Shown here in pieces: positions 28,468-30,970 of a stretch of DNA of 43,241 nt; positions within the stretch are counted from its first letter, which is position 1, and every line of letters begins with the position of its first letter. The DNA lies in the NCBI GenBank assembly GCA_943330455.2, contig CALQHT020000010.1, forward strand, positions 1-43,241. Direction: 5' to 3'. The translations under genes were made by a program, and so were the position numbers. Source of the DNA: Nitrosovibrio sp. Nv4 (GTDB lineage Bacteria > Pseudomonadota > Alphaproteobacteria > Acetobacterales > Acetobacteraceae). The notes beneath the pieces were generated by a model, which saw only the letters and a list, made by a program, of their open reading frames with translations, ran no database searches and was not told the origin of the DNA.

Positions 28468-28776
28468 TCAGATCTTGATCTCGACGTCCACGCCGGCGGC
28501 GAGGTCGAGCTTCATCAGCGCGTCCACCGTCTGTGGCGTGGGCTCGACGATATCGAGCAACCGGCGATGCGTCCGGATCTCAAACTGCTCGCGGCTCTTC
28601 TTGTCCACATGCGGTGAACGATTGACCGTGAAACGCTCGATATGGGTCGGTAGCGGGATCGGTCCGCGAACCCTGGCGCCCGTGCGCTTGGCCGTGTTCA
28701 CAATCTCCTTCGTGCTGTTGTCGAGCACGCGGTGATCGTAGGCCTTAAGCCGGATGCGGATATTCTGGTTGTCCAT
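28468..28776 (-). CDS. rpsJ: 30S ribosomal protein S10
   Basis: 102 aa. [39 protein letters not shown] and [19 protein letters not shown] identify S10, also known as NusE, which takes part in transcription antitermination. It opens the S10 gene group. Its ATG is only about 35 bases after the terminator-like hairpin that follows tuf. Confidence 0.98.
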
Positions 28777-28811
28777 CGTTCGCTCTTACGCTTTCCCGCC
28801 GAAACGAAAAC

Positions 28812-28849
28812 CGGCGCCCCGCCCAATAAGATGGCTGGGCGAAGCGCCG
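28812..28849 (-). terminator. Intrinsic terminator after tuf, possible S10-operon attenuator
   Basis: On the minus strand CGGCGC/GCGCCG outer arms and CGCCCA/TGGGCG inner arms form a 12-pair stem with a two-base internal loop, followed directly by GTTTTCGTTTC. This is a convincing Rho-independent terminator 16 bases after the tuf stop and close to rpsJ. Confidence 0.8.
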
Positions 28850-28865
28850 ATTGTCGTTGTGTCTA

Positions 28866-30056
<1,191 letters not shown>

Positions 30057-30109
30057 AGTCGTCTTCTCCGCGAATCCGTGTTCAGGGTTCGTGTTGCTGA
30101 AAGCTGCCG

Positions 30110-30586
30110 TTACCAGCGGTAATGGCTGAAGGCCTTGTTGGCTTCCGCCATCCGGTGGGTGTCTTCACGCTTTTTAACCGCTGAGCCACGGTTGTTCACC
30201 GCATCCAGCAGCTCGTTTGAAAGCCGGTCCTGCATCGTATGCTCGCCGCGCTTGCGCGCCGCGTCGATGATCCAGCGGATCGCCAGCGCCTGACGGCGTT
30301 CGGTGCGCACTTCGACCGGCACCTGGTAGGTGGCGCCACCGACACGACGCGACCGCACTTCGACGGCCGGCTTCACATTGTCCAACGCCTCATGGAACAT
30401 GCGCACCGGGTCAGCCTGTTGACCGCCACGACGCTTAAGCACATCCAGGGCGGTGTACACGATGCCCTCGGCAGTGGACTTCTTGCCGTCATACATCAGC
30501 GCGTTCATGAAACGGCTGAGCACAACGTCGCCGAATTTTGCATCCGGCAGGATTTCGCGCTTAACGGCGCGGCGGCGGCGGGACAT
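30110..30586 (-). CDS. rpsG: 30S ribosomal protein S7
   Basis: 158 aa. [41 protein letters not shown] and [18 protein letters not shown] are S7 signatures. S7 organises the 3' domain of 16S rRNA and contacts E-site tRNA. It starts 12 bases after rpsL. It is followed directly by tuf. Confidence 0.98.
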
Positions 30587-30598
30587 GGTCTGCTCCCC

Positions 30599-30970
30599 TT
30601 ACTTCGGCCGCTTCGCGCCATACAGCGAACGGCGCTGACGACGCTTGGCGATTCCCTGGGTGTCGAGCACACCGCGCAGGATGTGGTAACGCACGCCGGG
30701 AAGATCCTTGACGCGACCGCCGCGGATCAACACCACCGAGTGCTCCTGCAAGTTATGTCCCTCACCAGGGATATAGCTCACGACCTCATACCCATTGGTC
30801 AGGCGCACCTTGGCGACCTTCCGCAAGGCCGAGTTCGGCTTTTTCGGCGTGGTCGTATAGACGCGCGTGCAAACACCACGCTTCTGCGGGCAGCCCTGCA
30901 GGGCCGGAACAGTGTTCCGAACTTTCTGCGGCTCGCGCCCCTTGGCGATGAGCTGGTTGATGGTCGGCAT
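30599..30970 (-). CDS. rpsL: 30S ribosomal protein S12
   Basis: 123 aa from ATG 30970, standard length; a reading from 31078 would add 36 unrelated residues. [33 protein letters not shown] and [18 protein letters not shown] are present. The two lysines in PKKPNS and VKDLPG, where streptomycin-resistance changes usually occur, are wild type. S12 controls decoding accuracy. It is the first gene of the str group, with its own promoter. Confidence 0.97.

Follow-up and report, generated by a model that had tools for sequence, protein, structure and literature searches.

Absence of fusA from the str operon of sampled Acetobacteraceae and a divergent EF-G encoded elsewhere

The sampled Acetobacteraceae lack fusA, the gene for elongation factor G (EF-G), in their str operon, where rpsG runs directly into tuf. 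The EF-G gene found elsewhere in the genome analysed here appears, from its place in the phylogeny, to be a different, paralogous one, a point absent from an earlier reading of this DNA made from the sequence alone (the sequence-only reading). We consider it likely that displacement of an essential translation factor by its paralogue explains the loss of str fusA, with relatives at intermediate stages.

Results

The str locus of the window

The str operon is a textbook example of conserved gene order. The window, that is the whole stretch of DNA analysed (43,241 bases), is the entire contig C10 of draft genome G000, an assembly of 470 contigs with a listed completeness of 98.6%. The canonical order rpsL-rpsG-fusA-tuf is not found at its str locus. 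Instead, the minus strand reads rpsL-rpsG-tuf without fusA, followed by rpsJ and the S10 operon:

30599..30970, minus strand: rpsL, ribosomal protein S12 (open reading frame list and sequence; start read as ATG at 30970)
30110..30586, minus strand: rpsG, ribosomal protein S7 (open reading frame list; Pfam PF00177, 216.9 bits; TIGR01029 match)
30057..30109, minus strand: rpsG-tuf junction, 53 nt (sequence), the site of fusA in most sampled alphaproteobacteria
28866..30056, minus strand: tuf, EF-Tu (open reading frame list and profile search)
28809..28852, minus strand: terminator-like hairpin of 18 pairs between tuf and rpsJ (hairpin scan)
28468..28776, minus strand: rpsJ, which opens the S10 operon after tuf (open reading frame list; named from sequence)

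The spacing between rpsL and rpsG is 12 nt. Within the rpsG-tuf junction a Shine-Dalgarno-like GGAGAA precedes the tuf ATG, and no fusA remnant was seen by eye in its 53 nt. A genome-wide profile search returned one tuf match over the cut-off in G000. The hairpin downstream of tuf might part the str and S10 transcripts; it is a weak candidate, since the scan of the stretch gave two sites, no more than in shuffles (mean 2.5).

The EF-G gene of the same genome lies on another contig

The sequence-only reading had held that fusA is missing between rpsG and tuf and that EF-G must be encoded elsewhere. Both points stand: the 53-base gap on the minus strand holds no fusA, and a genome-wide search places the EF-G gene at G000:C27:11843-13915(-), on a contig other than C10. 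This protein is the only one of 13 TIGR00484 matches in G000 to score over the cut-off (1013.5-1013.7 bits; cut-off 659.4), which is the equivalog threshold for EFG I, the canonical EF-G, and it comprises all five domains (Pfam GTP_EFTU, EF-G_D2, EFG_III, EFG_IV and EFG_C). With no rpsG alongside, the gene falls outside EFG I as delimited by the str-operon context used in PMC3150367. Against NF009379 it scores 487.4 bits, under the cut-off of 513. A second EF-G-like gene, on contig C117 (L018), reaches 872 bits in that model (cut-off 513) and can be read as EFG II-like if NF009379 is taken to stand for EFG II. On that reading the genome has an EFG II-like paralogue, from which the main EF-G of the family differs by its low score in NF009379 (487) and its high one in TIGR00484 (1014).

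The C27 gene starts with GTG, preceded by GGAGG. Its upstream neighbour diverges from it and a downstream ABC-transporter-like open reading frame (a label read from the sequence) converges on it, so that fusA is probably transcribed alone. Codon adaptation, with the ribosomal proteins of the window as reference, is 0.788 for fusA, close to that of tuf (0.795), rpoB (0.778) and rpoC (0.805) and above the eight neighbouring open reading frames (0.655-0.742), which makes high expression of fusA likely. The proposal of the sequence-only reading that the stoichiometric link between EF-G and EF-Tu is broken finds no support. A promoter scan around the C27 gene found none, the scan being uninformative for a GC-rich genome. 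No fusA neighbourhood conserved across the family was found; the open reading frame caller used was crude and failed to recover fusA itself at 14/34 loci. In five family loci (L133, L135, L137, L138 and L142) a short open reading frame upstream of the standalone fusA resembles L28 (rpmB), a name read from the sequence.

The family EF-G belongs to a clade distinct from str EF-Gs

EF-G from 21 family genomes has a mean mutual identity of 84%, and is 58% identical to 58 alphaproteobacterial str EF-Gs and 55% to 11 non-alpha sequences. The 58 str EF-Gs are 72% identical to one another and 59% to 11 non-alpha sequences. We refer to the family EF-G and the non-str copies that group with it as ALT. 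Some class genomes encode two EF-Gs: G233, G269 and G392 each have one next to rpsG and a second away from it, and in each the non-str copy is closer to the family EF-G than is its own str copy. Azospirillum thermophilum carries a non-str EF-G on a 406-kb plasmid.

One clade of a 90-sequence EF-G tree (FastTree 1.0, UFBoot 100) takes in the 21 family sequences, the EF-Gs of G346 and G245, and four second copies from outside str (G233, G269, G392 and A. thermophilum); within it the A. thermophilum sequence groups with that of G269. A separate clade holds 47 str EF-Gs, the str-encoded ones of G233, G269 and G392 among them (UFBoot 92). Among the alignment columns listed, 17 split ALT from str, and at five of these the 47 str sequences do not vary.

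Transfer of ALT from outside the sampled alphaproteobacteria, replacing the native gene, is an improbable account of this pattern. ALT does sit alone on a long branch: its best identity beyond the family is 63% among the matches listed from 181 class genomes, G346 (78%) apart, and 62% among those listed from 299 phylum genomes. Moreover, a tree with str monophyletic and ALT free outside scores equal to the best tree. Against such an origin, ALT and the alphaproteobacterial str copies together form a clade relative to gamma, beta and other phyla (UFBoot 100; other phyla represented by six sequences), and none of 93 plasmid records reaches 60% identity, the eight top-ranked being from alphaproteobacterial genera.

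We think it highly improbable that str fusA itself simply left the operon in the family ancestor and then evolved fast. Operon rearrangements are common, nearly all matched family genomes have one full-scoring EF-G (G018 has two pieces at contig ends), and the deep placement of ALT depends on a long branch, all of which would suit relocation. The family EF-G groups, however, with the second copies of genomes that retain a str copy (UFBoot 100), and the 17 columns above separate ALT from the str type. With 40 sequences, LG+F+R4 and full tree searches under site-homogeneous models, a tree that forces the family EF-G (with G346) together with str copies and apart from other ALT sequences is rejected (delta lnL 73.6, p-AU 1.7e-18, p-SH 0.02), and relocation of str fusA is rejected with it.

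The same tests do not reject that ALT arose locally, from str copies of the Azospirillum-like kind (p-AU 0.25), nesting of ALT among Rhodospirillales-like str copies (p-AU 0.15) or ALT outside all str copies (p-AU 0.63). Faster constrained searches had given lower p-AU values for local duplication (0.036) and nesting (0.049); these were under-searched, as a constraint that the best tree already satisfies came out 36 log units below it. The identity of ALT is thus firmer than its birth: it may stem from an ancient duplication, from a local one followed by fast evolution, or from transfer. Because local duplication and nesting both pass the topology test, a long-branch effect may explain how deep ALT sits.

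A species tree from RpoC, S12 and S7, in which several taxa have only 273 sites and L021 is not included, leaves deep nodes unresolved (many supports <70) and G346 unplaced. The EF-G of G346 (L157/L158) is 77.5% identical to that of the window's family, nearer than its RpoC, S12 and S7 are (71-73%), while these three are 79% identical to those of G269. This difference hints that horizontal transfer of ALT EF-G may have involved G346.

The rpsG-tuf junction recurs across the family

Profile matches in 150 genomes of the window's family were found for fusA in 137, rpsG in 135 and tuf in 121. The comparison of the str operon in relatives that the sequence-only reading had suggested bears out its observation: among the 120 genomes with both rpsG and tuf, tuf lies directly downstream of rpsG, without fusA, in 116, and in the remaining four the genes sit at contig ends, consistent with contig breaks. 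The gap is ∼11-223 nt, measured between HMM match edges. In the 128 genomes with both fusA and rpsG, the two are on separate contigs in 101 and on the same contig in 27, with fusA <5 kb from rpsG in one (G113) and the next closest pair 42 kb apart. The G113 contig bears a second, lower-scoring rpsG, and that genome is listed with 5% contamination; this contig is likely a contaminant.

The nearest named rpsG matches are from Komagataeibacter xylinus (90%), Lichenicoccus roseus (89%) and Bombella apis (87%), which we take to be members of the Acetobacteraceae, and all three have rpsL-rpsG-tuf without fusA. At the other 77 named rpsG loci an EF-G match follows rpsG in 74, some cut by a contig end; of the last three, two stretches stop shortly past rpsG, and the third, L021, carries a broken EF-G. 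An assembly or annotation artefact that dropped fusA, which the sequence-only reading had named as its refutation and which a draft of 470 contigs might invite, has a negligible chance of being correct and is refuted by the recurrence of the same junction across the sampled family, including these three named species, and by the full-scoring EF-G present once elsewhere in G000. For the same reason of recurrence the loss of fusA is a family trait rather than an assembly accident: absence of fusA from str is a trait of the window's family as sampled.

A draw of 120 genomes at the level of the order came entirely from the window's family. In the class outside this family, fusA lies ≤3.5 kb from rpsG in 135/137 genomes with both genes among the matches listed, the two exceptions, again among the matches listed, being G346 and G362. 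This tally takes the best 150 matches per search (190 genomes) and leaves out the lowest scorers, among them G245, whose str copy is absent, and G233, G269, G392, G339 and G395, whose str copy is present. In G346 and G245, which belong to other families, tuf directly follows rpsG, as read by eye at contig ends, so that these genomes too are without str fusA; one f27 genome and one f128 genome have thus lost the gene from str.

Two further departures were seen. In G362 (contig C3, L123) fusA and tuf stand together with rpsG on a separate contig, another kind of str break. Two tuf matches occur in 14 of the 121 tuf-matched family genomes (G045, G063, G102, G104 and others), the second lying in several cases ∼15-21 kb upstream of the str copy; G000 has one tuf.

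Many str EF-Gs of ALT-bearing relatives are altered in domain IV

We compared six motifs, G1, G2, G3 and three loops at the tip of domain IV, in 218 aligned sequences, with eight doubly fetched loci and four partial ones dropped and two short ones unaligned; five str copies to which a residue rule gave no type were assigned to str from their position in the genome. All six motifs are intact in every ALT copy (37/37). In the Azospirillum-like order of G269, the str copy has a changed loop in 33/51 genomes with ALT, which is not an unbiased rate because the hand-chosen str copies favoured low scorers, and in 0/10 genomes without ALT among the matches listed. Str copies were read in 61 of the 82 genomes of this order, 30 being the best-scoring, taken automatically, and 31 chosen in favour of low scorers. 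An ALT match, judged by hand on how long the match is and where it ends, is present in at least 71/82; an assembly gap could account for its absence from G691 and G708.

Outside the order of G269, 0/106 str-type copies are changed, ALT presence having been checked for a minority of them. All but L177 and L178 (104 of the 106) were seen beside rpsG and/or tuf. Two changed copies were set aside from this count: that of G233 and that of L039, a Rhodospirillales MAG kept apart from the sets with and without ALT. As the genomes are kin, none of these motif counts represents independent events. All loop motifs are kept in the str copy of 18/51 ALT-bearing genomes, so ALT does not always go with str change.

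Loop 1 is changed in 29/33 changed str copies, and the other four (L205, L210, L211 and L248) deviate only in a different loop, L205 mildly. The loss of identity is greatest in domain IV: measured against canonical str EF-Gs from that order, 28 changed copies are 58% identical in domain IV and 74% in the G domain, versus 78% and 80% in the 18 ALT-bearing copies with loops intact. GTPase motifs are kept in 28/33 changed copies. The remaining five, from a single genus (g414; G761-G765; L218, L219, L220, L246 and L247), have the P-loop Lys replaced by Arg, and in four of them the G3 glycine is also altered; these str EF-Gs are full-length with non-canonical domain-IV loops, and a standalone EF-G is encoded elsewhere in the genome.

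The domain-IV tip loops of EF-G enter the decoding site during translocation, and str EF-Gs with changed loops are for this reason unlikely to translocate normally; they may have a new job. Ten str loci (L152, L213, L215, L216, L217, L221, L241, L242, L244 and L245) have in common a Q[TML]GDRAQ domain-IV loop, which suggests selection for a maintained new function rather than plain decay.

Between rpsG and tuf on a Rhodospirillales MAG contig, an open frame (L021:1331-2530(+)) encodes a 399-aa EF-G fragment that matches domains I-II only, with G1, G2 and G3 degraded. By BLAST its best str EF-G match (280 bits) exceeds its best ALT match (268 bits) by a narrow margin. The frame may be a relic or a new protein.

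Discussion

From the observed gene positions, family pattern, ALT clade and motif states we infer a functional takeover with the following order of events. A Rhodospirillales-like alphaproteobacterial ancestor would have had two EFG-I genes, fusA in str and ALT outside it, and in this ancestor ALT would have assumed translocation. The str copy, then freed from constraint, would have had its domain-IV tip loops altered in many Azospirillum-like relatives, together with its GTPase motifs in one genus, and would have been reduced to the 399-aa fragment with degraded G1-G3 in one MAG. In the sampled genomes of the window's family and in one genome each of f27 and f128 it would have been deleted, so that rpsG runs into tuf, and the EF-G of the window's genome would be supplied by the lone ALT gene on a separate contig.

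The stages seen run from both copies intact, through altered str loops, altered str GTPase motifs and a truncated str copy, to its absence, and such a series makes the replacement of an essential translation factor testable. The copy outside apparently won, the opposite of what is assumed in passages of Margus et al. 2011 (PMC3150367), where the str copy remains stable under its original constraints after duplication. Those passages mention two single-EF-G genomes without a str location. Among the papers listed by searches of the open-licence literature, none reports EF-G displacement or family-wide fusA loss in Acetobacteraceae, or the loop changes. In Azospirillum-like bacteria, the gene beside tuf is not safely taken to be a working EF-G.

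Displacement might have gone further in these relatives. Since 28/33 changed copies keep GTPase motifs and have non-canonical loops partly common between genomes, their str EF-G could conceivably be no longer a translocase and instead a new ribosome-bound factor, with the standalone EF-G translocating and the window's family having discarded the factor, though we hold this reading to be somewhat doubtful. If it is true, the relatives show an essential translation factor displaced and then repurposed or deleted.

Passages of PMC3832671 describe a comparable pair of EFG-I genes in Pseudomonas aeruginosa, EF-G1A in str and EF-G1B elsewhere, which are 84% identical and both retained. There the non-str copy is reported to be the translocase: EF-G1B is 75-fold more active than EF-G1A in poly-Phe synthesis, and EF-G1A is reported as non-functional in elongation and perhaps a recycling factor. 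Unlike that pair, ALT and str types are about 50-63% identical, many str loops are changed, and the window's family, as sampled, is without a str copy. The spdEFG1/spdEFG2 and mtEFG1/mtEFG2 pairs, as presented in parts of PMC3150367 and PMC4342817, are likewise EF-G paralogues at work where str EFG I is absent; ALT, in contrast, scores as canonical EFG I (TIGR00484) and is the only full-scoring EF-G of G000. A three-residue KDG insertion in switch I is given as a feature of spdEFG1 in passages of PMC3150367, and an alignment of ALT with a solved EF-G chain (6not) shows no gap in that stretch.

The second EF-G called gcEFG2, of undefined function, is attributed in passages of Atkinson 2015 (PMC4342817) to cyanobacteria, gammaproteobacteria and nine alphaproteobacteria, and those nine could overlap the carriers of ALT. 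The one gamma non-str EF-G compared, L177 from a Pantoea plasmid, falls beside an EF-G from a Cupriavidus megaplasmid and apart from ALT.
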